Assembly (NCBI RefSeq): GCF_030252185.1
Contig: NZ_CP126970.1
Coordinates: 1,178,001-1,242,000 of the forward strand
From: Corynebacterium suedekumii
GTDB lineage: Bacteria > Actinomycetota > Actinomycetes > Mycobacteriales > Mycobacteriaceae
Reading direction: 5' to 3'
Length of the DNA stretch: 64,000 bases
Position numbers and translations under genes: made by a program
Shown: positions 38,260-51,744 of the stretch, piece after piece
Numbering within the stretch: the first letter of the stretch is position 1
Layout: each line of letters opens with the position of its first letter
Notes under the pieces: model-generated
The model's input: only the letters and a program-made list of their open reading frames with translations
Database searches by the model: none
What the model was told of the DNA's origin: nothing

Positions 38260-39587
38260 CCCAGCCCCCGGATGAGGGCGAATAGGCCCGCCTGGTGGGC
38301 GGCCAGCGGAAGGACCGCGGCGACGGCGAGCGACTCCGCCCGTTCCCACCACACGACGGTCGTCGGTTCCAAATCGCGCACGTGCGGGGTCCACACCGGG
38401 GCGGTCACCGCCGCGAGCACGACCAGACCAGCGATCCCCAGCTGCACCGGATGCCCGGAACCGTGCGCCGCCGCCAGGGCCGTACCGACCGCCCCCGCGA
38501 GCCCGATGAGCAGCCACGCCCACGCCACCACCGGTTGATGATGGCGGGCGGCGTGCAGCAGGACCGCCCCGGCGACCGCGACGCAAATCGCCAACGCGAA
38601 CCCGCCGCCCTGCCAACCGAGGGTCAGCACCGCGGGGACCATGGCGGCGGCGGTCCCCAACGACAGGCCCTCATGCAGACGCTGGGCGCGCCGGGCACGG
38701 TCATCCACGTCCGACTGCACCTTGTCGGCGACGCCCAGATCCTGGCCCGCCGTGGGCACGCGTGGTACCCGCAGGCCGGCCGCCTTTGACGCCCAACCGG
38801 GAAGCGCAGCGATGACCGGAACCCCGGCACCGACGATGACCGCGGCCGACGCCACCCCGGGGCTGGCGGCGTGCTCCGGCAGGAAAGCGCCACCGACACC
38901 GAGGGTGGTGAACCCGGCCACCGCGACGAGCGCCGCTCCCGTGCGGGCACCCAGGCCACCGAGGACAGCGGTGAGGAGCAGCGCCGCCAGCATCGCCCCC
39001 GTGGCGGCCAGACCCGCCCAGCCGAGGGTGTCCGGGGTGAGCCGGTCCGCCGGATCTGCCGCCTCGAGGACGGAGGTGCCCGCGGCGGCCGCGGTGAGCA
39101 GGATCGTGGCGGTCCCCAGGACCTGGAAGCGGCGCTGCCAGACGAGCATCGCCACCGTGGCCACGGCACCGACCGCCAGCGCGACCGACACCGGCTGAAA
39201 CGCGAGGACGAGCACGATGAGCCCGGCGCAGCCGGTGAGCGAGGCCGCGGTGGCCAGGCCGCTCGTGCCGGCACCCGGCGCGGTGGCGACCAGGGACTCG
39301 GCCGCGTCCCGGATGACCGGGGCGGCGGACTCGTGGCGCGGGGTGAGCACGATGACGGATCCGTGGTCCAGCGGAGTCTGGTGCAGCGGGACCGCCGCGT
39401 CGAGCTGCTGGCCGCCGGCCGTCATGGCGTGCCACGGCCGGGAGATCCGGGGAGCCCCGCACAGGGTGACGATCTCCGGGATGAGATCCGCCAGGGATGA
39501 ACCGGCCGGCAGAGCGACATCGGCCTCCCGGTGATAGCCGCCGACGTGGAAGCGGACGGTCAGGCGCAGAACATGGTCAAGACTCAC
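38256..39587 (-). CDS. eccD: ESX-4 type VII secretion channel protein EccD
   Basis: EccD forms the large membrane ring of ESX complexes. The product has an N-terminal ubiquitin-like YukD domain (about residues 1-85: LRLTVRFHVGGYHREADVAL) and about eleven membrane helices. GTG 39587, with GGGGGA nine bases upstream, is the preferred start, giving 443 residues; an ATG at 39623 is the alternative. It is divergent from eccC and coupled to mycP by a four-base overlap. Confidence 0.9.
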   Translation of the reverse strand: MSLDHVLRLTVRFHVGGYHREADVALPAGSSLADLIPEIVTLCGAPRISRPWHAMTAGGQQLDAAVPLHQTPLDHGSVIVLTPRHESAAPVIRDAAESLVATAPGAGTSGLATAASLTGCAGLIVLVLAFQPVSVALAVGAVATVAMLVWQRRFQVLGTATILLTAAAAGTSVLEAADPADRLTPDTLGWAGLAATGAMLAALLLTAVLGGLGARTGAALVAVAGFTTLGVGGAFLPEHAASPGVASAAVIVGAGVPVIAALPGWASKAAGLRVPRVPTAGQDLGVADKVQSDVDDRARRAQRLHEGLSLGTAAAMVPAVLTLGWQGGGFALAICVAVAGAVLLHAARHHQPVVAWAWLLIGLAGAVGTALAAAHGSGHPVQLGIAGLVVLAAVTAPVWTPHVRDLEPTTVVWWERAESLAVAAVLPLAAHQAGLFALIRGLG

Positions 39588-39845
39588 GTGGATGATCCCC
39601 CAGGTAACGGTCGGGCCGGGCACACCCCCTGTGCCCTGCTGCCGACATCTTCACCCACCGTCGCTGTCCTGTCCACCGGAGGATGCTCGCCAGGTCCCCC
39701 GGGCAGGCTCGCTCTGCGGGACCCGGTGATCTGCCCTAGGATCACGCCAGACATGTCCGCGTGGTCGCGGATCTCCGGTGGGGGTGACCGGGCGGACCAT
39801 GCGCACCGACATGGGTATGACACGGGTATCACCAGGGGGAAGAAC
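39588..39845. promoter_or_regulatory. Divergent eccD/eccC promoter region
   Basis: About 258 bases between the two divergent ESX transcription units. I see an AGGGGGA binding site (39835-39841) before eccC and a GGGGGA before eccD, but no ECF-type GGGAACCT box of the kind found ahead of esxU. Confidence 0.45.
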
Positions 39846-42800
39846 ATGCTCGGAGTACATCTCGACCGCGTCGTGGAGCCGATCAGCTCGGCCGAACGCG
39901 AACCTGCGCCACCGCTGCCGCAGGGCACACTCACCGCGGAGACGGTGCCGCCGGCACACCGGCCCGGGCCGTTGCCGCTCATCCGCATCCTCATGCCCGT
40001 GGTGATGATCGCCGGTATGGCCGCCATGGTCGGGTTAATGATGCTCGGCGGGGCCGGCGCCAGTCCGATGATGCTCATCTTCCCGCTCATGATGGGGATG
40101 TCACTGCTCATGATGTTCTCCCCGCCGGCCGGCGAGGACGTCGACGAGACCCGCCGCACCTATCTGCGGCACCTGGGAGCGCTGCGGGAGAAGGCCCTCG
40201 ACCATGCCGAGCGGCAGCGGGCCCACGAATTCCACCGCCACCCCGACCCCGCCGAACTGTGGTCGCGGGTGGGCACCCGGCGGCTGTGGGAACGCGGTGC
40301 GCAGGACGCGGACGCGCTCGAGGTGCGCATCGGCATCGGGGACACCGGGTTGTGCACCCCGGTGCAGGTGCCGGACTCGGGTGCGCCGGAGGACCTCGAT
40401 CCGGTGTGCGCGGTGAGCCTGCGACGCACCGTCCGGGCGGTGAACACCTGCCCCGGGATGCCGGTGGCGGTGCAGCTGCAGGCCTTCCGTTTCCTCGGGA
40501 TCTCCGGCCCGGGTGCCGCCGACCTCGCGCGGGCGATCGTCGGCCAGCTGGTCACCGCGCACGGCCCGGAGACCATCGGACTGGAGGTCATCGGCCAGGG
40601 CTGGGACTGGGTGAAATGGCTGCCCCACACCCGCGCGCCGGAGACCGCGGCCTTCCGTGTGCTCATCGTCGACTCGGTGACCACCACCGGCACCGAGCCC
40701 TACCTTGATGATCCGGTGTGGACCACCATCATCGACGTCGGTTCCCGGTCCACCACCGCCCTGGGCATGCGCTGCGAGCAGGAGGGCTTCGCCCTGTCCG
40801 CCGACGATGAGCTGCGGGCCCACACCGCCGCCGGCATGGAGGTCCTCGGCCGGCCTGACCGGCTCCGGGAGGAGGAGGCCGTCATCCTCGGTCGGGCACT
40901 GACCCGATCCCGCCGCCCCGACAGCACCACCTCCGGCACCGGCAAGGACCTCACCTCACTCATCGGGCTGGCGGACATCGAGCAGCTCACCCCTGAGACC
41001 ATGTGGCCGGGGCGGGAGCAGTCCCGGCAGCGGCTGGTGGTCCCCATCGGCACCACCCCGCAGGGCGTGCCGGTGCGCCTGGACCTCAAGGAGTCCGCCC
41101 ACGGAGGCATGGGGCCGCACGGGTTGTGCATCGGCGCCACCGGCTCCGGAAAGTCGGAGCTGCTGCGCACCCTGGTCGTCTCCCTGGTCGCGACCCACAG
41201 TCCGGAGGAACTCAACCTCGTCCTCGTCGACTTCAAGGGTGGCGCCACCTTCCTCGGGCTGGAGGCACTGCCGCACACCTCCGCGGTGATCACCAACCTC
41301 GCCGACGAGGCCGTCCTCGTGGAGCGCATGTTCGACGCCATCTCCGGCGAACTCAACCGCCGGCAGGAGGTGCTGCGCGCGGCCGGCAACATCGCCAACG
41401 TCACCGACTACACCGCCGCCCGCCTGGCCGGCCGCGATGACCTGGAACCGCTGCCGGCACTTGTCATCGTCGTCGACGAGTTCTCGGAACTGCTCGCCGC
41501 CCACCCCGACTTCGCCGACCTCTTCGTCGCGGTCGGTCGACTCGGCCGCTCGCTGCACGTCCATCTTCTCCTGGCCAGCCAACGACTCGAGGAGGGCGAC
41601 TACGCGGTCTGGACTCGCACCTGTCCTACCGGATCGGGCTGAAGACCTTCTCCGCGGCCGAATCCCGCCAGGTCCTCGGCGTCACCGACGCGCACCACCT
41701 GCCCGCCCAGCCGGGCGCCGGGTACCTGCGTCACGACGCCGACGACCTCACCCGATCCCAGGCCGCCTACGTCTCCGGGCCGCTGGCGCGCCGGGATGTC
41801 TCGGCCCTGCCGGGCGAGGGGGCGGGCCGGGTGGCGCTGTTCACCGGATGGGACCAGTTCGACGTCGCCGACACCCCGACGGTCTACGACGAGTCGACGA
41901 CGCTGCTGGACACCGTCGTCGACCGGGCCCGCACCACCGCGCAGGCCCGTGGGCTGCACGCCCACCGCATCTGGCTGCCTCCGCTGCCCGCCGCCATCGA
42001 ACTGTCCGGCGTGGCCGAGGACGTCGGGGAGCTGGCTGCCGCGATCGGCATCATCGACCGGCCCTATCACCAGCGGCAGGATCCGCTCATCCTCGATCTC
42101 ACGGCCGGCGGTGGGCACGCCGCGCTCTGTGGTGGCCCACAGACCGGTAAATCCACCGCCCTGCGTACGATCGTCGCCTCGCTGGCCGCCACCCACGGCA
42201 CCGACCGGGTCCGGTTCTACGTCCTCGACCTCGGCGGCGGAACCCTGGGCACCCTCGACCGACTACCGCACGTGGCGGGCGTGGCCGACCGCCACGACCC
42301 GGAACGGGTCCGCCGCATCATCGACGAGGTCACCGGCCTCGTGGAGTCCCCGGAGGAGCGTCACACCTTCCTCGTCGTCGACGGCTGGCACGCCGTCGCC
42401 GGTGACTTCGAGGATCTGGTCGAACCGATCACCCGCCTGGCCGCCGACGGCCCCAGCGCCCGGGTCCACCTGCTGCTGTCCACCCCGCGCTGGACCGTCC
42501 TGCGCCCGGCGATCCGGGACCTGATCACCCACCGGCTGGAACTGAAACTCGGCGAGCCGATGGATTCGCTCATCGACCGCAAAGCGCAGCAGAAACTGCC
42601 CGGCCTGCCGGGCCGGGGGCTCACCGCCGACGGCGGACACATGCTCATCGCCCGCAGCTCCCACCAGGACCTCGCGCACATCAGCGCCACCGCCGGTGAC
42701 CCGGTACCGCGCCTCAAGGTCCTGCCGGCCCACCTCACTTCGGCCGAACTCGCACCCACCGCGGGAATTCCACTGGCCGTCGGCGGTCCACGCCTGGAGA

Positions 42801-43450
42801 CCCTGGCGTGGGACCCGGCCACCAGCCCGCACGTCGTCTGCATCGGCGGGCAGGGGGCAGGCAAGTCGACGTGGCTGGCCACCGTCGCAGCCGGCATCAC
42901 CAGCCTGGGGCCCGAGGCGGCCCGCATGGTGGTCATCGACCACCGCCGCGCCCACCTGGGCACCCTGGACGAGAGCATGGTCGCCGCCTACTCGGCCACC
43001 AGTGCCGCCACCCAGACGGTGCTCGCCGACGCCGTGGCGACCCTCACCGCCCGGCTTCCCGGCCCCGACATCACCCCGGCGCAGCTGGCGGCGAGGAACT
43101 GGTGGTCCGGTCCGGAGATCTACCTGCTCATCGACGACCTCGACCTCGTCACCGACCACCTGCTCCACCCGCTCGTCGACCTGCTGCCGCACGCCCGCGA
43201 CATCGGCCTGCACCTGGTGCTGGCCCGGAAATCCGGCGGCATCGGCCGCGCTCTGTTCGGCGCGTTCTTCTCCGCCGTCCGCGACCAGTCCCCGGCCGTG
43301 ATGCTTCTCGACGCCGACCGGGACGAGGGCGCCATCTTCGGCATCAAGCCCGTCCCCCAGCCACCGGGTCGCGGCACCTGGCAGGTCCGTGGTGAGACGG
43401 TCGGCGTGTGCCAGATCGCCACCGTCCCTGGCGACGGAGGTGACGCATGA
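39846..43450 (+). CDS. eccC: ESX-4 type VII secretion ATPase EccC, split by a one-base loss
   Basis: FtsK/SpoIIIE-like motor that recognises and drives WXG100 substrates. Two membrane helices (about residues 46-93) precede three ATPase domains: Walker A GATGSGKSE (about 429), GGPQTGKST (about 762) and GGQGAGKST (about 1000). The frame is lost near 41597 after LASQRLEEG. Adding a C (GGGC(C)GACTACG) continues as RLRGLDSHLSYRIGLKTFSA and gives about 1201 residues, the normal size. The lesion matches the one in rpoA, so an error is more likely than inactivation. Confidence 0.9.
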
Positions 43451-44439
43451 GCGCCCCCGCCCTGCCCGGCACCCTGACCATCACGGTGCTCGACACCGCC
43501 ACCATCTTCGAGGGCCCCGACACCGTCTACCGCTACGACCTGCCCGGCACCGGCATCATCGACGGGTGGGCGCTGCAGGCCGTGGTCGACCAGGCGAAGG
43601 AGATCTGCAGTCTGCACTGGCCGGACGTCGAGATCATCGTCGACGCCCCCGAAGCGGCCACCGAGGTCCTCACCCGGACCTTCCTCAACAAGGGGGTGGC
43701 GGCCTATCCCACCGAGGCACTGCGGGAGACCACCCTCCCCGGCGCCGACGACGACGGGGGAGAGGTCACCATCACCCGCCCCACCGAATCGGCCGGGCGG
43801 GGCCGCCACCGGCTGGGCCGACACTCCTGGTTCCACCCCTTCCAGCTCGTCATCGCGGCCGTCGTCCTCACCATCGCCGGCCTGAGCTGGTGGCTCGTCG
43901 GCGGCCAGAGTCCGCCCCAGGAAGCGGCGGAGGAGACGGCGGCGGCGTCCGCCCCGACCCCGGCGGAGACGGCACCTGAGACGACGGCGACCACGGCGGC
44001 GTCGACAAGCAGGGAGCCGGAACCACCGACCACAGTGCTGGAGCTGGCGGGCCTGTCCGTGGCCACGCCCGAGGGATTCCGGCTGGAGGACCGCGACGGC
44101 GGGCTCGTGGCGGTGGGGGAGGACCCCGCGCTGCGGATCCACCTCGCCGCCGATCCCGTCTACTCCGTGCCCGCCGACGCGGTGCTCGCGCAGATAGCGG
44201 CGATGGTCGACACCGACCCCACCCTCCACCCCCTCGACCCCGAGCGGCGCGCCCAGGGCGATGAGACCACCCGGTACCGGGAAGTTCCCGGCGACGGCTC
44301 CGAGGTCACGTGGAGCACATGGATCGAGGACGGCCACCAGCTCAGCGTCGGATGCCAGACCCGGCAGGAACCGACGATTCCGCAGGCAGCGGCCTGCCGC
44401 ATGGCGCTCGACAGCCTCCGGCTGACCGGGCGGACATGA
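43447..44439 (+). CDS. Type VII secretion-associated protein (Rv3446c-like)
   Basis: A 330-residue protein matching the ESX-4 Rv3446c family by position and layout. It has a cytoplasmic N-domain (residues 1-125), one helix (FQLVIAAVVLTIAGLSWWLV, about 135-155), a Thr/Glu/Ala-rich linker (about 160-200) and an outer C-terminal domain with two cysteines. The start overlaps eccC by four bases (ATGA). Function unknown; probably an ESX-4 assembly or control factor. Confidence 0.85.
   Translation: MSAPALPGTLTITVLDTATIFEGPDTVYRYDLPGTGIIDGWALQAVVDQAKEICSLHWPDVEIIVDAPEAATEVLTRTFLNKGVAAYPTEALRETTLPGADDDGGEVTITRPTESAGRGRHRLGRHSWFHPFQLVIAAVVLTIAGLSWWLVGGQSPPQEAAEETAAASAPTPAETAPETTATTAASTSREPEPPTTVLELAGLSVATPEGFRLEDRDGGLVAVGEDPALRIHLAADPVYSVPADAVLAQIAAMVDTDPTLHPLDPERRAQGDETTRYREVPGDGSEVTWSTWIEDGHQLSVGCQTRQEPTIPQAAACRMALDSLRLTGRT
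43998..44010 (-). repeat. Variant of the 13-base element (GCTTGTCGACGCC)
   Basis: Reverse-strand variant, differing from the main form at three positions, inside the linker region of the Rv3446c-like gene. A second identical copy lies in alr at 59888-59900. Confidence 0.4.
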
Positions 44440-44455: not shown

Positions 44456-44487
44456 GGGAACCTCCGGCCCGTTTCCGGAGTCCAACA
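44456..44487 (+). promoter_or_regulatory. ECF-sigma-type promoter of esxU-esxT
   Basis: GGGAACCT (44456-44463), a 16-base spacer and GTCCAACA (44480-44487) lie 93 bases before esxU. The identical pair of boxes with the same spacing occurs at 48031-48062. In M. tuberculosis the ECF factor SigM controls esxT-esxU through a similar GGAAC/CGTC-type promoter, so SigM is the natural candidate here; that link is inference. Confidence 0.7.
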
Positions 44488-44580
44488 TGCGTGGAAGGGT
44501 CGCACCGCGGCCTTCTCCGGGGGACCGTCGGGGACCAGCCCCGACACCACACCAACTTCCATCCCGAGGGGGGAAACACC

Positions 44581-44898
44581 ATGACAGCAATGTTCAGGAC
44601 CGAATCCGACGTGATGCTGGCCACCGCCGGCCGCGTCGACACCACCAACTCCGAGGTGCAGGGCGAACTGACCCGCCTGCAGGGCGTCGTCGACGGCGTC
44701 CGCGGCAGCTGGGCCGGCAGCGCACAGGTGAGCTTCGACCAGCTCATGCAGCGCTGGGACACCTCCGCGCGCGAGCTACGCGAGGCGCTGACCAGCATCT
44801 CCGACAACATCCGCCACAACGCCCGGTCCTTTGAATCGACCGAGGCCGACAACTCCCAGGCCTTCACCGCCGTCGGCGGCCAGGGCCTGGCTCTCTAG
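44581..44898 (+). CDS. esxU: WXG100 protein, EsxU-like ESX-4 substrate
   Basis: Small helical-hairpin protein secreted as a dimer with EsxT. It has 105 residues, the same as Rv3445c (EsxU) of M. tuberculosis, with the turn motif W-A-G at 44-46. A classical YxxxD/E signal at the C-terminus is not visible; FESTEAD is the closest. It follows the Rv3446c-like gene by 141 bases that hold an ECF-type promoter, and precedes esxT by 15 bases. Confidence 0.92.
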   Translation: MTAMFRTESDVMLATAGRVDTTNSEVQGELTRLQGVVDGVRGSWAGSAQVSFDQLMQRWDTSARELREALTSISDNIRHNARSFESTEADNSQAFTAVGGQGLAL

Positions 44899-44913
44899 GA
44901 ACAGGACACCACC

Positions 44914-45201
44914 ATGGACGCAATCAAGTACCAGTTCGGCGCCATCGAGGCCGCCGCCGGCGACATCAACGCCACCTCCGGCCGCATCAACGGACTGCTC
45001 GCCGACCTCAAGTCCCAGATCCAGCCGATGGTGAGCACCTGGGAAGGTGACTCCGCCGTCGCCTACCAGGAGGCACAGGCCAAGTGGGACCGATCGGCCA
45101 CCGAGCTCAACACCATCCTGTCCACCATCTCCCGCACCGTCTCCCAGGGCAATGACCGCATGAGTGACGTCAACCGCATGGCCGCCGCCAGCTGGGGCTG
45201 A
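44914..45201 (+). CDS. esxT: WXG100 protein, EsxT-like ESX-4 substrate
   Basis: Partner of EsxU. The 95-residue product is a helical hairpin with the turn motif W-E-G at 43-45 and a heptad-rich second helix ([20 protein letters not shown]). It lacks a YxxxD/E tail. Position before rplM equals Rv3444c. A strong hairpin terminator follows at 45285. Confidence 0.92.
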
Positions 45202-45284
45202 CCGGATCCCGCCACCACCGGCGGCCGGCCACCTCACCCGTGACCCACGGGCAGACGCGGACCCATCGGCCGGCCGTCGTCGCT

Positions 45285-45316
45285 GACGGTGACAGCCCGG
45301 GCAGGCTGTCACCGTC
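45285..45316 (+). terminator. Terminator of the esxU-esxT operon
   Basis: Perfect 13-base-pair stem GACGGTGACAGCC (45285-45297) with GGCTGTCACCGTC (45304-45316) and a six-base loop. Confidence 0.85.
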
Positions 45317-45376
45317 CACCTCCACCGCCCGCGACATCCTGGACTGCTTCGGCAGCTCCGAACCGTCGCGGGCGGT

Positions 45377-45406
45377 TTGGTGTTGCCGGGGGTGGTCCCA
45401 TACACT
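45377..45406 (+). promoter_or_regulatory. Promoter and leader of rplM-rpsI
   Basis: TTGGTG (45377-45382), an 18-base spacer and TACACT (45401-45406) form a plausible housekeeping promoter. About 150 bases of leader follow to the TTG start. The rest of the 365-base gap after esxT holds only the terminator and no gene I can support. Confidence 0.5.
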
Positions 45407-45566
45407 CAGGAGTCTGTGTGTGCTGTCCCGACGCACGCGTTCTCCCCTGGGAGATCATGCGGACCAGGACGGCAGGTCACCTCGCGGGTCCCCACCGGCC
45501 GCCGGATGTGACTGTGGCGCGCAGCGTTTGGCCGGCAGCCCCCAGACAGACTTTCAAGGAGTCATT

Positions 45567-46010
45567 TTGTCTACTTACCACCCGACGAGCGGTGACATCA
45601 CCCGCAAGTGGTACGTCATCGACGCCACCGACGTGGTGCTGGGCCGACTCGCCTCCCACGTGGCAGACCTGCTGCGCGGCAAGGGCAAGCCCCAGTTCAC
45701 CCCGAACGTCGACTGCGGCGATCACGTCATCGTGATCAACGCCGACAAGGTCCACATCTCCTCCAACAAGCGCGACCGCGAGATGCGCTACCGCCACTCC
45801 GGCTACCCGGGTGGTCTGAAGTCCATGACCCTGGGTAAGGCTCTGGACACTCGCCCGGACCGCGTGGTCGAGGAAGCAATCGTCGGCATGATGCCGCACA
45901 ACAAGCTTTCCCGTTCCTCCGCCAAGAAGCTCCACGTTTTCACCGGCTCCGATCACCCGTACGCCGGCCAGAAGCCCGAGACCTACGAGATCAAGCAGGT
46001 GGCACAGTGA
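45567..46010 (+). CDS. rplM: 50S ribosomal protein L13
   Basis: L13 is an early assembly protein. The 147-residue product reads [20 protein letters not shown] after a TTG start at 45567; AAGGA (45556-45560) is the binding site. The conserved [20 protein letters not shown] block is present. The longer open frame upstream is not L13. It overlaps rpsI (GTGA). Confidence 0.97.
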
Positions 46011-46552
46011 CTGACCCGAACCTGAACGACGACTCCACCGTGGCCGAGGCAGCCGACATCCAGGCCGCCACCGCCGCCACCGAGGAGTTCAACTACACCA
46101 TCGGCGACGCCGTCGCTCCCGAGGTCGAGGCCGATGAGGCAGAGGTCGAGACCTCCGTCCACTTCGACGGCCCGATCCAGACCGTCGGTCGCCGTAAGCG
46201 CGCCATCGCCCGCGTGCGCGTGGTCGCCGGCTCCGGCGAGATCACCTGCAACGGTCGTCCGCTGGACGAGTACTTCCCGAACAAGCTGCACCAGCAGGAC
46301 ATCCTGTCCCCGCTGGCTCTGCTGGAGCGTGAAGGCCAGTTCGACATCAAGGCCAACATCTCCGGTGGCGGTCCGACCGGCCAGTCCGGCGCCATGCGCC
46401 TGGCCATCGCCCGTGCACTGAACCTTTACAACCCGAGCGATCGCGCAGCCCTGAAGAAGGCTGGCTTCCTCACCCGTGACGCCCGTGCCGTCGAGCGTAA
46501 GAAGGCCGGTCTGCACAAGGCACGTCGTGCCCCGCAGTACTCCAAGCGTTAA
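46007..46552 (+). CDS. rpsI: 30S ribosomal protein S9 with N-terminal extension
   Basis: S9 contacts the P-site tRNA with its C-terminal tail (RRAPQYSKR, conserved here). The 181-residue product carries an acidic extension of about 52 residues ([20 protein letters not shown]) before the S9 core at [13 protein letters not shown]. Such extensions occur in actinobacteria; the role is unknown. GTG start overlaps the rplM stop. Confidence 0.97.
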
Positions 46553-46561
46553 TCACCTCTC

Positions 46562-46574
46562 GCTTGCCGACGCC
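46562..46574 (+). repeat. Variant of the 13-base element (GCTTGCCGACGCC)
   Basis: Lies ten bases after the rpsI stop, overlapping the terminator stem: the same placement as the exact copies behind rplE and rplO. Identical variants occur at 36318-36330 (eccB) and 63503-63515 (tsaB). Confidence 0.5.
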
Positions 46575-46608
46575 GCCCCCTCCCGCCTCATGCGGAGGGT
46601 GGCGGCGT
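46570..46608 (+). terminator. Hairpin terminator after rpsI
   Basis: ACGCCGCC (46570-46577) pairs with GGCGGCGT (46601-46608) around an inner CCCTCCCGC/GCGGAGGG stem. Confidence 0.8.
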
Positions 46609-46653
46609 TCGCCGTTCCCGGGGTCGGACTCTTTGGCTCTCCACAGCCACATG

Positions 46654-46659
46654 CATAAT
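46654..46659 (+). promoter_or_regulatory. Probable -10 box, leaderless glmM start
   Basis: CATAAT lies seven bases before ATG 46667, and CTTTGG is 17 bases further upstream. This supports ATG 46667 over ATG 46658 as the glmM start. Confidence 0.45.
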
Positions 46660-46666
46660 GGACGCC

Positions 46667-48010
46667 ATGACTCGACTCTTCGGAACTGACGGTGTTCGCG
46701 GCCTGGCGAACAAGGACCTCACCGTCTCCATGGCCCTCAAGCTCGGTGCGGCCGCCGCCCGGGTGCTCACCGCCGACCGGAAATCCTCCGACCTGCGCCC
46801 CATCGCCATCGTCGGCCGTGACCCCCGGGTCTCCGGCGAGATGCTGGCGGCCGCCCTGTCCGCCGGCATGGCCTCCTGCGGTGTCGACGTCCTCCGCGTC
46901 GGCGTCATCCCCACCCCGGGTGTCGCGTTCCTCACCGACGACTACGGTGCCGACATGGGTGTGATGATCTCCGCCTCGCACAACCCGATGCCGGACAACG
47001 GCATCAAGTTCTTCTCCTCCGGTGGCCGCAAACTCCCCGACACCGTCGAGGACGAGATCGAGGCCGCCATGAACGATCTCCCGGAGACCGGCCCGACCGG
47101 CACCGGCGTCGGCCGCGTCATCGAGGAGGCCCCGGACGCCCAGGACCGCTACCTCGCCCACCTCCGGGAGGCCACACCCACCGACCTGACCGGCATCAAG
47201 GTCGTCGTCGACTGCGCCAACGGCGCCGCCTCCGAGGTTGCCCCGCTGGCGTATGAGGCCGCCGGTGCGGAGGTCATCGCCATCCACAACCGCCCGAACG
47301 CGCTCAACATCAACGACAACTGCGGTTCCACCCATATCGAGCAGGTGCAGAAGGCCGTCATCGAGCACGGCGCCGACCTGGGCCTGGCCCATGACGGCGA
47401 CGCCGACCGCTGCCTGGCCGTCGACGCCGCCGGCAACGTCGTCGACGGTGACCAGATCATGGCCATCCTCGCGGTGGGCATGAAGGAGAAGTCGGAGCTG
47501 CGGAAGAACACCCTCGTGGCCACCGTCATGAGCAACCTGGGTCTGCGGATCGCCATGGAGGAGCAGGGCATCACCATGCTCGAGACCAAGGTCGGCGACC
47601 GCTACGTCCTCGAGGAGCTCAACGCCGGCGGCTTCAGCCTCGGCGGCGAGCAGTCCGGCCACATCGTCCTGCCCGACCACTGCACCACCGGTGACGGCAC
47701 CCTCACCGGTCTCAAGCTCATGTCCCGCATGGCCGAGACCGGCAGCTCCCTGGCCGAGCTCGCCGGCGTGATGACGGTCCTGCCGCAGGTGCTCATCAAC
47801 GTCCCCGTCGAGGACAAGAACGCCATCATGGGCGACGAGCGCGTCAACGCCGCCATCCGCGAGGCCGAGGAGGAACTCGGCTCCACCGGTCGCGTCCTGC
47901 TCCGTGCCTCCGGCACCGAGGCCCTGTTCCGTGTCATGGTCGAGGCCGCTGAGAGTGAGCAGGCACGCAAGGTCGCCGGCCGGCTCGCCGCCGTCGTGGC
48001 CTCCATCTGA
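46667..48010 (+). CDS. glmM: Phosphoglucosamine mutase
   Basis: Converts glucosamine-6-phosphate to glucosamine-1-phosphate for UDP-GlcNAc and peptidoglycan. The 447-residue product begins [20 protein letters not shown] and has the phosphoserine loop ISASHNP (Ser102), the metal loop DGDADR and the sugar loop GGEQSGH. The C-terminal phosphate loop is [17 protein letters not shown] 46667 is chosen by homology and the -10 box. glmS, the preceding step, lies 4.8 kb downstream. Confidence 0.96.
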
Positions 48011-48030
48011 CGATAAATTTTCCGGTTTCC

Positions 48031-48062
48031 GGGAACCTTTGGCCCCCTCGGGCAGTCCAACA
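48031..48062 (+). promoter_or_regulatory. ECF-sigma-type promoter matching that of esxU
   Basis: GGGAACCT (48031-48038), a 16-base spacer and GTCCAACA (48055-48062) repeat exactly the boxes and spacing found before esxU. It starts the operon at 48102. Confidence 0.7.
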
Positions 48063-48101: not shown

Positions 48102-48401
48102 ATGTCCGGGATCAGACTGGACCATCGGGCGGCGAAGGCGGCACTGCGACGCCTCATGGCGGAGGGGGAGGACCACCACCGTCGTCACACCGCGACCACG
48201 CCGGCGCTACCCGCCACCGCCGCGGGTCGCGCGTTCGTCGACCGGGGAGCGGCCATCGCCGACGCCCTGCGCCGGGTGCACGAGCACGGCGCCCGGAGTA
48301 TCGACGCCCTGCGGGCCACCGCGGACGCCGCAGCGGAGCAGGTGGACGTCTTCCGCGACGTCGATAAGCGCAACGCCGACGACCTGGCGGGACGCTCATG
48401 A
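48102..48401 (+). CDS. Small helical protein of unknown function (Rv3440c position)
   Basis: A 99-residue protein, mostly alpha-helical and charged (LDHRAAKAALRRLMAEGEDH; DALRATADAAAEQVDVFRDV). No WXG motif, but its size and its Ala-rich helices resemble type VII substrate-like proteins. GAGGGGGA (48089-48096) precedes the ATG. It lies downstream of glmM, as does the similar-sized Rv3440c in M. tuberculosis. The ECF-type promoter shared with esxU makes an ESX-4 connection likely; this is inference. The next gene overlaps by four bases (ATGA). Confidence 0.7.
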   Translation: MSGIRLDHRAAKAALRRLMAEGEDHHRRHTATTPALPATAAGRAFVDRGAAIADALRRVHEHGARSIDALRATADAAAEQVDVFRDVDKRNADDLAGRS

Positions 48402-49150
48402 CCGCGGCAGGCTACGGCGCAGCCGTGGACATGCTCCGCACCGCCTCCCGCGGCACCTACCGCGGGCCGGCGATCCCCGTACCCAAACTTATCGACGCCC
48501 TCCGCACCACCGAGGGCCTCAACCCCGACGACCTGGTCACCCACACCCGCGCCGCCGCCGGACCTGCCGCCGGGGCCTGGCTCGGCCCCCTGATCCAGGG
48601 GCTGCTCACACTGCTCGCCGAAATCGCCCTCGCCGAACTCCTCCGCCGCCTGGTCGACCGGGCCCAGGACTGGTGGGACAACCGGGACGCCGCCAGGAAA
48701 CTCGAGGACTCGGCAGAAGACGCCGGCAACGCACTCAAGGGCATCGAGGACGTCGCCGACACCGCACTCACCGAGATCACCGACGCCCTCACCGCCGTGA
48801 TCACCCACCTCTGCGCCTTCCTCTCCCGCATCGACCCCGCCGCCCACCCCGGCATGTTCCAGGAATGCGTCGGAGCCGGCTCCGACCTCATCGACTCCGC
48901 CGGTGACGCACTGCTCCAGACCTGCGCCGACCGCGACGAAGCCGTCGCCGGCTGCCTCGACGAGTTCCTCGCCCGCTGCGAGGCGGTCTGTGAACAACCC
49001 GTCGCCGTCCCACAGAAGGACGTGGCCCGATGCGACAAACCACCAGCCGCACCGGTGCCGGCCCCGGAGAGCCCCGTGCCCCCGGTCGCGCCTGGCGTTC
49101 CGGTGTCTCCGGTTGCCCCGGTTGCCCCGGGTTTTCGGGTGAGGCGGTGA
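48398..49150 (+). CDS. Ala/Pro-rich protein, first part (probably one gene with the next)
   Basis: A 250-residue reading frame. It has a helical N-terminal two-thirds with a hydrophobic stretch (WLGPLIQGLLTLLAEIALAE, about residues 60-80) and a cysteine-rich segment (about residues 165-210). A Pro/Ala/Val-repeat tail (PVPPVAPGVPVSPVAPVAPG) follows. The tail continues naturally into the following frame if one T is added to TTTT at 49132-49135 (APGFSGEAVTAPQ). The joined protein of about 484 residues would match the size and composition of the Ala/Pro-rich Rv3439c. Alternatively the two are separate genes coupled by GTGA. Confidence 0.65.
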   Translation: MTAAGYGAAVDMLRTASRGTYRGPAIPVPKLIDALRTTEGLNPDDLVTHTRAAAGPAAGAWLGPLIQGLLTLLAEIALAELLRRLVDRAQDWWDNRDAARKLEDSAEDAGNALKGIEDVADTALTEITDALTAVITHLCAFLSRIDPAAHPGMFQECVGAGSDLIDSAGDALLQTCADRDEAVAGCLDEFLARCEAVCEQPVAVPQKDVARCDKPPAAPVPAPESPVPPVAPGVPVSPVAPVAPGFRVRR

Positions 49151-49848
49151 CCGCGCCGCAGTCCTCCGGTGCTCCGACCCCGGCTCCGGCTCCGCCAACG
49201 TCGGCAGGCGGGTCTGCGCCGGTGGCGCCGGTGGCGCAGGAACAAACGACAACACCGCAGGCCACGGCGCCGGCCGTTCCCGAGACCCGGGCCGACGACC
49301 ACCCGCCGACCACTCCCACCGAATCCGTGCCGGAGACCGCCCCGGACGGGGACGCGCCCGAGGACCTGCCGACCTCCCCACAGACCGTCACCCCGGGACC
49401 CGTGGACGAGACCACACCGGCAGCCGGAAACTGCGCCGACGTGCTCGGTGCCGCAGGCCTGGGAGTGGCGGCCCTCGGCCTGGCGCTGCTCATCAGCCTG
49501 CTGGAGGAGTGCCTGCCGGAGCTGGCAGGGGCGGACTTGGTTCCCGATGTCGTTCCGGAACCCGCTGAGGCAGCAGAACCGCTGATGGAACCGGCTGCGG
49601 AGTCCGGGATCGAACCTGAAACGGAATCGGCCCTCGCCGAGGTACCGGAACCGACACCACCGCCCAAGCAGACCGCGCCGGAGCCACCGGCGCCCCCGGC
49701 TGACCTCACCGACGTCCCCGAACCGCCACCGCCACCCAAGCAGGAGATCCCCACACCGCCAGCGGCGGACATGCCCGCCCCAGCCCCCGACAACACTTCC
49801 ACCCCGGCACCGGTGCCGGGCGGCGCACGAAAGGCAGGTGAATGGTGA
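49147..49848 (+). CDS. Ala/Pro-rich membrane protein, second part
   Basis: From GTG 49147 this frame gives 233 residues: a Pro/Thr/Ala-rich stretch, one membrane helix (VLGAAGLGVAALGLALLISL, about residues 100-119), and a Pro/Glu-rich tail with two PPPKQ repeats. It is probably the C-terminal half of the preceding gene, separated by a lost T; as it stands it overlaps the first part by four bases. A surface-exposed stalk anchored near its middle is the plain reading. Function unknown. Confidence 0.6.
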   Translation: MTAPQSSGAPTPAPAPPTSAGGSAPVAPVAQEQTTTPQATAPAVPETRADDHPPTTPTESVPETAPDGDAPEDLPTSPQTVTPGPVDETTPAAGNCADVLGAAGLGVAALGLALLISLLEECLPELAGADLVPDVVPEPAEAAEPLMEPAAESGIEPETESALAEVPEPTPPPKQTAPEPPAPPADLTDVPEPPPPPKQEIPTPPAADMPAPAPDNTSTPAPVPGGARKAGEW

Positions 49849-50072
49849 TGGAGTTCGAGGAGTTCTCCCGCCAGTTCCGCGCTCGGACCACCCAGCGGAT
49901 GATCGAGTTCGAGAAGGCGCTCGCCAAGGCTCAGGAGCGGGTGGAGAAGTCCACGGCAGCGCCGACGCCGCGGACCCGTTCTACCACGCCCGCGCAGGCC
50001 CCCGGGGGACACACGCCGGCCCTTCGACCGGGTGCACGGGGTCAGGTGCAAGGAGTGCTGCGGAGGAACTGA
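49842..50072 (+). CDS. Small helical protein at the end of the 48.1 kb operon
   Basis: A 76-residue hydrophilic protein (MVMEFEEFSRQFRARTTQRM) with one predicted long helix and a Thr/Pro-rich basic tail. I do not recognise it. The start could be ATG 49842, GTG 49845 or ATG 49848, the last overlapping the previous stop as TGATG. Tight spacing makes it part of the operon that begins at 48102. Confidence 0.55.
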   Translation: MVMEFEEFSRQFRARTTQRMIEFEKALAKAQERVEKSTAAPTPRTRSTTPAQAPGGHTPALRPGARGQVQGVLRRN

Positions 50073-50220: not shown

Positions 50221-51744
50221 ATGGTGTCACGGCAGATCACACAACTGGTCGACCAGATCGAGGTCGCCATGACCACCCTGGCTGATCTCATGGCCGAACC
50301 CGATCATGTTGACTTCCACTCGGTGCGGGCTGATTTCATCCGCCTGGAAAAGACCATGAACGCCAAAGCCTACCTCGACGCCTCGTTTGCCTGGCTGGTA
50401 GAACGCTCCGACGCCGGCCGCCTGGTCGGTTCCAGTCGGCCCATCGACTTCCTCATCACAGCACTCGGGTTGTCCTGGCAGGAAGCAGTCGACCGGGTCG
50501 GACGCGGTGAGGGACTGTTCACCACACCGGCCGTTGCACCCATGCCCACCCCGGAACCTGAGGCAGGGGAATCCGCCGAGGAGACACAGAAACGCGAGCA
50601 CAAGCTTCGGGAGGAAGAAGCCCGCCGCCAGCAGGAAGACGAGGATGCCCAGAAACAGGCCCGGGACCAGGCCCGCAAGGTCGCCGCAGAGAAACAGAAG
50701 ATCATCCGGCAGGAACTCCGCACCCTCAACGAGCATTCCTCCCCCAGTCGTGCTGTGCTGCAGGCAGAAGCATTGAAGGAGGCAGGCCACCGCTCCCCGG
50801 AGGATCTGCGGGTCTGGCTGCGCCGGAAGGTGACCAACGCCAATGCCGTTGGACGCCAACCCGACGGGAGAAAGGACCGGCTGGCCGGGCACAAGAAACG
50901 CGCCCTGCGTCTGGGTAAGCAGGACACCGACGGCAACGTGAGTATCTCCGGGTCCCTGCCAGCGGATGTCGCTGCGATGCTCACCGCCGCCCTGGCACCG
51001 GGACTACGCCCCGGAGCGAACACAGAAGTGCCAGACGACAAGGACAAGCGCAGCCGGGCCCAACGCGCCGTCGACCAGCTCAGTGTGCTGCTGTCACGTC
51101 TGCTGTCGGACGAGTCACCGAAGTCCCGTCAGGGGGTTGGTTCGGTGGTGGTCAGCATGACCACAAAAGATGTCGAGGAGATGACCGCAGACAGCCGGTT
51201 CCTGTCGAATACCGGGCATCTGCTCTCGGCGTTGGACATCCTCACCCTCGGTGCTGCTGCCTTTGACCTTGGTGTGCTGCATGACGAGCAGGGTCAGCCG
51301 TTGGCCCTGGGTCGGACGAAACGCACGGCAACCCTGTATCAGCGACTCGCTCTGTTTGCCTATGAGGGGTTGTGTGCCTGCGGTACCTGTGACGGGGCGA
51401 TGATTCATGCCCATGTGCACCACATAATGCCGTGGGCCCGGGGTGGGGTGACGGATCTGGAGTACCTCACCCTGGAGTGCCCACCCCATCATGCGGATAA
51501 CAATGACAACCAGGATGGGGCCGGTGGGATGGGGCATATGGTGCGGGACCCGGAAACGGGACGGGCGGGGTGGCAGCCACCGGATGGTGGGCCGATCCAG
51601 TTCAACGACACCGAACTACAGGAATATTCTGCGGGGGCGAAGATCAGGGCGAGATCGAAACCGCCTGGCCCCACCGTGTCCCCACCCGCCGACAACCCGA
51701 AACCCGGCCCCACGGGCCTGTTCGACCTGCCCACCGGCGGATGA
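50221..51744 (+). CDS. 13E12/DUF222-family HNH endonuclease-like protein
   Basis: A 507-residue protein of the family repeated in actinobacterial genomes (REP13E12). It has an N-terminal DUF222 region, a Glu/Gln/Lys-rich coiled coil (about residues 124-165), and a C-terminal HNH domain. The HNH domain shows GLCACGTC, then HVHHIMPWARGG (about residues 398-409), then LECPPHH. Members are often scattered and mobile; no terminal repeats were seen. Base composition looks slightly less GC-rich than its neighbours. A cruciform terminator follows. The upstream LexA-like site agrees with DNA-damage induction known for some mycobacterial members. Confidence 0.85.
   Translation: MVSRQITQLVDQIEVAMTTLADLMAEPDHVDFHSVRADFIRLEKTMNAKAYLDASFAWLVERSDAGRLVGSSRPIDFLITALGLSWQEAVDRVGRGEGLFTTPAVAPMPTPEPEAGESAEETQKREHKLREEEARRQQEDEDAQKQARDQARKVAAEKQKIIRQELRTLNEHSSPSRAVLQAEALKEAGHRSPEDLRVWLRRKVTNANAVGRQPDGRKDRLAGHKKRALRLGKQDTDGNVSISGSLPADVAAMLTAALAPGLRPGANTEVPDDKDKRSRAQRAVDQLSVLLSRLLSDESPKSRQGVGSVVVSMTTKDVEEMTADSRFLSNTGHLLSALDILTLGAAAFDLGVLHDEQGQPLALGRTKRTATLYQRLALFAYEGLCACGTCDGAMIHAHVHHIMPWARGGVTDLEYLTLECPPHHADNNDNQDGAGGMGHMVRDPETGRAGWQPPDGGPIQFNDTELQEYSAGAKIRARSKPPGPTVSPPADNPKPGPTGLFDLPTGG

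Follow-up and report, generated by a model that had tools for sequence, protein, structure and literature searches.

A rigidly spaced SigM-type promoter motif and a candidate regulon joining esxU-esxT, recA and predicted nuclease genes in Corynebacterium

In the genome of Corynebacterium suedekumii (assembly GCF_030252185.1, contig NZ_CP126970.1, here C1), the same promoter-like sequence stands before esxU-esxT, genes of the ESX-4 type VII secretion system (T7SS), and before an operon located after glmM. This raises the question whether the two sites belong to one regulon, which sigma factor reads them, and what such a regulon would do for the cell. The window that we analysed is a stretch of 64,000 nucleotides (C1:1178001-1242000), and positions without a prefix refer to it. 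A first-pass annotation of the window had proposed one regulon for both sites and pointed to SigM, a sigma factor of the extracytoplasmic function (ECF) type. SigM-type promoters have the consensus GGAAC in the -35 box and (C)GTC in the -10 box, with fixed spacing. Our results suggest that both sites are members of a rigidly spaced promoter-like set, GGGAACC-N17-GTCYAA, and that the shared regulon is almost certainly real. We give a probability of about 0.8 that a single regulon read by SigM joins ESX-4 to recombination and nuclease genes, irrespective of what it is for.

The motif and the genes behind it

Both sites match GGGAACCT-N16-GTCCAACA exactly over 32 bases each, with the same boxes and the same spacing, and the coordinates first reported for them (Table 1) were confirmed. 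It had also been stated that there is no third complete copy. This holds within the window, where no further copy was found, nor was one found in 100 dinucleotide shuffles of the window; a scan of the complete single-contig genome of 2,858,263 bases gave one additional exact copy on the minus strand (C1:1135952-1135983), upstream of an AbiEi-like gene. With one mismatch allowed, the loose ECF core GGAAC..GTCNNA was no more frequent in the window than chance would give (14 sites against 16.9 expected), and the 16-base pattern with up to three mismatches gave 30 sites in the genome, mostly noise, against 21 for its reversed control. The site counts in this study are based on patterns stricter than this three-mismatch scan. 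The first-pass annotation had named chance frequency of the motif as an outcome contrary to its proposal, and this is not what the core GGGAACC-N17-GTCYAA showed, as it was found with at most one mismatch at 18 sites in this genome and at 1 site when the pattern was reversed. Moreover, when the spacer in GGAACC..GTCYAA was left free from 15 to 19, all 11 matches had a spacer of 17 (reversed control, 4 matches).

The motif is widespread in the genus. Across 151 Corynebacterium genomes there were 588 exact core sites against 13 for the reversed pattern, and 108 genomes carried at least one exact site. The site before esxU was exact in 29, with one mismatch in 6 and absent in 9 of 44 named Corynebacterium loci; after glmM, the corresponding numbers were 30, 3 and 9 among 42 named loci with a readable glmM end. 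Both sites are present in 30 named loci, which agrees with the earlier proposal that the post-glmM operon belongs to the same regulon as esxU-esxT. At loci L236 and L237 an exact site lies ahead of an EccC-like gene.

In this genome, 14 of the 18 core sites precede genes of recurring families. Site 1 leads into esxU-esxT and site 2 into the post-glmM operon. A second operon encodes a protein of 93 aa, an NlpC/P60 protein (PF00877, 86.7 bits) and a protein related to SatS, and at another site a gene for a DUF3558 lipoprotein is accompanied by one for a long protein rich in Gly and Ala. Further members are genes for a GmrSD_C/HNH protein whose start is hydrophobic and for a SAF-domain protein (PF08666, above cut-off), tagI (PF03352, 217.5 bits), recA-recX, where the -35 box deviates at one position, and, ahead of a treY-like gene, a gene for a 202-aa protein that matches nothing in Pfam. 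AbiEi-like genes follow five sites (L069, L074, L075, L068 and L079), and only the one at L075 is above Pfam cut-offs (AbiEi_4, DUF559). Those at L068:1742-2761 and L079:4052-4653 look broken or fragmentary. The third gene of the NlpC/P60 operon matched the SatS export chaperone model over nearly its full length at 309.8 bits (NF050072), below the cut-off of 700, and is regarded as related only. Likewise, the SAF-domain member matched the CpaB pilus protein model below cut-off (TIGR03177, 35.5 bits, cut-off 71). The four sites outside the recurring families are L042, L043, L044 and L047, of which L043 lies within a long frame.

The families were defined by clustering the genes downstream of 115 sites in 15 genomes, chosen among the matches listed; for the present genome a relaxed pattern was used. 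The most common was the SAF-domain protein (11 of the 15 genomes), followed by orf99, NlpC/P60 and the SatS-related protein (10 each), the long operon protein, HNH and the membrane-protein neighbour of HNH (9 each), EsxUT, MscL and orf76 (8 each), AbiEi/DUF559, a 200-aa protein and TagI (7 each, the TagI copy of this genome being missed by the gene caller), orf93 (6), a RelA-like protein (5) and a TreY-like protein (4). DUF3558, RecA, RecX and EccC were found in 3 genomes each. Some genes behind the sites, such as tagI at L072 and esxU at L133, escaped the gene caller, which lowers these counts. The names MscL, TreY, RelA-like and RecX, as well as EccC in other genomes, were assigned by eye and not by model.

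The motif also extends beyond the genus. In a set of 201 genomes from the family, including 16 from Corynebacterium, the site was present in 146 genomes and 24 of 31 genera, with 0-2 control matches per genome. We read 42 sites from other genera (40 regions of 9 genomes, chosen among the matches listed), and 13 of them precede a gene that matches a corynebacterial family, namely AbiEi/DUF559 (8), RecA (2, at L317 and L323), HNH (1), NlpC/P60 with a SatS-related gene (1) and an EsxUT-like gene (1). The base before GTC was C at 41 of the 42 sites, giving CGTCYAA. At one site in another genus (L302:535-1157), the motif lies 5 nt before a small pilin-like frame, which is followed by a TadE_Rv3655c protein above cut-off; a link to pili is possible there.

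The sigma factor that may read the sites

The genome has eight sigma-70 region 2 matches, which by their neighbours comprise two primary-type and six ECF-type genes. One of the ECF genes lies before trxB and matched NF007225 at 157.6 bits, below the cut-off of 190, yet the best of 82 matches; because of this position and this match we call it sigM. The same adjacency is found in the mycobacterial SigM module, where sigM is beside trxB-trxA. In that module the anti-sigma gene rsmA directly follows sigM. Of 19 loci, 13 had both sigM and trxB called, and none of these showed an anti-SigM gene between the two; the other 6 were unreadable by the gene caller.

SigM very probably reads these sites, to judge from how the number of sites follows its conservation. 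Of the 116 genomes in which SigM had a close match, 93 carried at least two exact sites, as did 6 of the 35 others (Fisher p 1.7e-11, relatedness ignored), and within the 116 genomes the number of sites rose with the SigM score (Spearman 0.59). Together with the CGTCYAA form of the other-genus sites, this supports indirectly the SigM control that was proposed at the outset. We had classed the 35 other genomes as being without SigM, which was wrong: at a lower threshold, an ECF match was found in the same short locus as trxB in 22 of 23 re-examined, the exception being G134. One of the 22, G116, has a sigM divided into two parts some 10.6 kb from each other (C1:2951216-2962349; L418 and L395). 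In this interval, read at its ends, a frame that by eye resembles a recombinase starts at the break, and phage-like frames are found towards the far end; a mobile element has probably inserted into sigM.

Four genomes with a divergent SigM (G054, G066, G076 and G125) carry TGAACC-N17-GTCTAA before recA. The pattern TGAACC-N17-GTCYAA occurs at 11 sites in these four genomes, with empty reversed controls, and is absent from the four control genomes G000, G085, G142 and G148. All 11 sites precede regulon genes: recA in all four genomes, the NlpC/P60 operon in three, and a RelA-like operon, an HNH gene, an orf99-like operon (E 3e-4) and esxUT once each. The SigM proteins of these genomes are divergent over their whole length, region 4.2 included. 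As the switched box precedes the same gene set, the concerted -35 change points to one sigma factor and is hard to explain otherwise. In a separate observation, all seven exact sites of G017 read TTGTCTAA, perhaps another lineage-specific variant of the -10 box.

The first-pass annotation had expected transcription to start just after the box, and, as far as sequence goes, the position of start codons agrees with this. When only unique exact sites are counted, 78 of the 111 in Corynebacterium have an ATG or GTG 4-8 nt past GTCYAA (12 have one in a control interval of 24-28 nt), as do 26 of the 42 in other genera (2 in the control interval). Such spacing would be expected from leaderless transcripts, and we infer that the sites act as active promoters. 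At site 1, an in-frame GTG lies 5 nt past the box, besides the usual esxU start (Table 1), and at site 2 the orf99 start is 41 nt past the box.

For recA, the 30 loci nearest to the query were inspected. A GGGAACC-N(16-18)-GTCYAA motif with at most one mismatch was present within 260 bases upstream in 28 of them, 13 exact, against 0.1 of 30 in a Markov control; with the spacer fixed at 17, the number was 17 of 30. Exact sites 69-102 bases before the recA match were found in G012, G057, G085, G089, G120, G130, G141 and G142. Even in genomes without any exact site, recA had a box within two mismatches in 12 of 15. We suggest that recA may be a weaker or a doubly controlled member.

Several findings weigh against a single SigM-read regulon coupling these functions, or against its use in receiving DNA. 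The co-occurrence statistics take no account of relatedness, exact sites are lacking in 19 genomes that do have a SigM match, and the class without SigM consists, as said, of genomes whose SigM is divergent. Because recA was the source of the TGAACC box, only 7 of its 11 sites count as independent, and three of the four genomes (G054, G076 and G125) are closely related. The recA boxes are less perfect than the others, and G017, G106, G107 and G145, which have 6-7 exact sites elsewhere and a divergent SigM, have no recA site. At 36 of the 115 sites read, the first gene was uncalled or of no shared family, and no DNA-uptake gene recurs in the set. In addition, the single ESX-4-like T7SS of Corynebacterium glutamicum was reported to be controlled by Fur and used for iron uptake, according to the passages available (PMC12607788).

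The genes around the two sites

The operon after glmM exists as first described (48102-50072), although its long gene is split over two frames (Table 1). In all 32 named relatives listed the matched part is a single frame, so the gene in the window is either broken or affected by an assembly error. In relatives the protein is one chain, of 334-556 residues in eight of them. A domain predicted to be helical forms its N-terminal part, the middle is rich in Pro and Glu, and the C-terminal tail is conserved. This tail reads RKAGxW in 22 of 25 named-locus frames that include the end (one with an extra residue), two others being close variants and one different. Rv3439c of Mycobacterium tuberculosis was reported, in the part of the source available, to bind the PDZ domain of Rip1. 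Its position after glmM suggests that the pair Rv3440c-Rv3439c may be the M. tuberculosis counterpart of the operon. If so, the RKAGxW tail could be a PDZ ligand.

By profile comparison, the product of orf99, the first gene of the operon, is related to the protein encoded first in the NlpC/P60 operon (probability 87, E 4e-6) and has no clear relation to EsxU (probability 13). Neither orf99 nor any of the 10 members of its alignment matched a WXG100 or EspC profile. In structure searches with orf99 and with the N-terminal domain of the next protein, the long helices matched many unrelated chains. The operon appears to be a module of partner proteins within the regulon, to which the sister operon adds a wall hydrolase, and it is plausible, as was proposed, that the operon encodes ESX-4 substrates, chaperones or surface partners.

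The two WXG100 genes behind site 1 follow two further ESX-4 genes, and the closest named genes of EsxT are all from Corynebacterium, with identity up to 89%. The window EccC (39531-43450) consists of two frames of 703 and 539 aa with a gap, and in other genomes it is one frame of 1173-1284 aa. After the operon lies a DUF222-HNH protein (50221-51744), a close copy of which (L084:2724-4229) adjoins the orphan ECF sigma gene elsewhere in the genome.

Table 1. Sites and genes of the window discussed in the text
Feature	Position	Strand	Evidence and remarks
Promoter-like site 1	44456..44487	+	Exact match, before esxU-esxT; kept in 35/44 named loci at <=1 mismatch
Promoter-like site 2	48031..48062	+	Exact match, after glmM; kept in 33/42 named loci at <=1 mismatch
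EccC, C-terminal ATPase part	41831..43450	+	TIGR03925 578.6 bits, above cut-off; neighbour, not behind site 1
T7SS_Rv3446c-type ESX-4 gene	43447..44439	+	TIGR03931 151.7 bits, above cut-off; directly upstream of site 1, not behind it
esxU, WXG100 protein	44581..44898	+	PF06013 77.8 bits; additional in-frame GTG at 44491
esxT, WXG100 protein	44914..45201	+	PF06013 77.3 bits; TIGR03930 86 bits
orf99, small predicted helical-hairpin protein, first gene of operon	48102..48401	+	AlphaFold2 pLDDT 85.9; family in 10/15 genomes; no Pfam/NCBIfam match
Long operon protein, N-terminal part (helical domain)	48398..49150	+	Aligns with N-terminal half of relatives; model pLDDT 85.1, residues 1-210
Long operon protein, C-terminal part, other frame	49030..49848	+	Aligns with C-terminal half of relatives; Pro/Glu-rich, tail RKAGEW
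orf76, last small gene of operon, overlaps preceding gene	49842..50072	+	Family in 8/15 genomes; no Pfam/NCBIfam match

A possible role and comparison with known systems

In Mycobacterium smegmatis, according to reports, contact with a donor releases SigM in the recipient, ESX-4 is under SigM control along with a nuclease and a hydrolase of the cell wall, and conjugal transfer needs ESX-4 and recA of the recipient (PMC9514802 and PMC8262963, in the passages available). The corynebacterial set has the same kinds of genes, plus recA, and for this reason we propose that it serves the receipt of DNA. One ECF sigma factor, most likely SigM, would turn on ESX-4, recA-recX, the wall-hydrolase operon and the predicted nucleases. 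The wall hydrolase would open the cell wall, ESX-4 would place partner proteins, the nucleases together with TagI would process the DNA, and RecA would recombine it. Contact-dependent DNA transfer with neighbouring cells is a tentative purpose, argued by analogy, which we hold at somewhat below even odds. A wider conjecture, which we consider more doubtful, gives SigM the role of master switch in a recipient-competence programme that would be ancient in the Mycobacteriaceae. Contact would then induce ESX-4, the hydrolase, pilus-like proteins, the AbiEi/DUF559 and HNH nucleases and RecA, and the ancestral ESX-4 would serve natural DNA exchange rather than virulence secretion.

The main rival to DNA transfer accepts the same SigM regulon and gives it to antagonism and self-protection: ESX-4 and the hydrolase would act on neighbours or on the cell's own wall, while RecA, TagI and AbiEi/DUF559 would guard or repair DNA. 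The frequency of AbiEi/DUF559 among the members, in this genus and in others, speaks for it, as do TagI, whose family repairs alkylated DNA (PF03352), and the lack of a recurring DNA-uptake gene. We nevertheless find it unlikely, as no toxin-immunity pairs were recognised beside the sites and the M. smegmatis precedent, in the passages available, concerns DNA transfer. Less likely again is a general envelope or oxidative stress regulon, with ESX-4 and recA as two of many stress outputs of SigM. The position of sigM beside trxB and the treY-like, mscL-like and RelA-like members would suit such a role, and in C. glutamicum sigM is reported to be controlled by SigH. However, the thioredoxin promoters of C. 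glutamicum once assigned to SigM proved to be SigH-dependent, and most of the recurring genes concern ESX, the cell wall or DNA.

The sites might also be read by another ECF factor, SigE or the orphan ECF factor at C1:222636, which we hold to be improbable. In the parts of the C. glutamicum reports available, SigE shares the -35 box GGAAC, but the -10 box of SigE and SigH promoters is GTT and not GTC. The orphan factor was tried as the reader and rejected: it occurs in 27 of the 151 genomes and goes with fewer sites, at least two being present in 9 of the 27 genomes with it and in 90 of the 124 without it. That the pair is a chance repeat in GC-rich DNA would agree with the loose core in the window and the three-mismatch scan, both near their controls, but it is refuted by the excess of stricter sites over reversed controls, the fixed spacing, the fixed start distance and the conserved targets. 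One C. glutamicum study sought a SigM-dependent promoter, confirmed none and, in the portion available, asked for further work. The present motif is a concrete candidate for a SigM promoter, with named targets in many Corynebacterium species. Membership of recA in the promoter class of ESX-4 genes would tie the ancestral type VII system to recombination outside the one mycobacterial model. The concerted -35 change in four genomes is a natural experiment in the co-evolution of a sigma factor with its promoters. We know of no earlier functional setting for AbiEi/DUF559 proteins, and the regulon gives them one.

Among the known systems, TfoX/QstR of Vibrio cholerae has a similar outline, as one regulator couples contact-dependent secretion with DNA recombination, but the regulator and the machinery are unrelated, and no DNA-uptake gene recurs in the Corynebacterium set. 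The T7SS of C. glutamicum is the same secretion system in the same genus, with Fur and iron there and a SigM-type promoter here; control by Fur and by SigM could act together. In M. tuberculosis, SigM was reported to activate the esx-4 genes, esxU and esxT included (PMC10117145, in the passages available). The GGAAC/CGTC consensus of SigM-type promoters fits the other-genus sites, whereas the base before GTC in Corynebacterium is mostly A (84 of 111 sites), and recA is absent as a member from the available passages of that source. In the SigM-ESX-4 contact response of M. smegmatis, as in the set described here, promoters of the SigM type place esxUT, a gene for a wall hydrolase and one for a nuclease under a common regulator. 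Unlike that response, the Corynebacterium set also has sites at recA-recX, tagI, AbiEi/DUF559 and SAF-domain genes. The literature search, which covered its sources in part, returned no SigM-ESX-4 regulon of Corynebacterium. From mycobacteria, SigM control of esx-4 genes is known.

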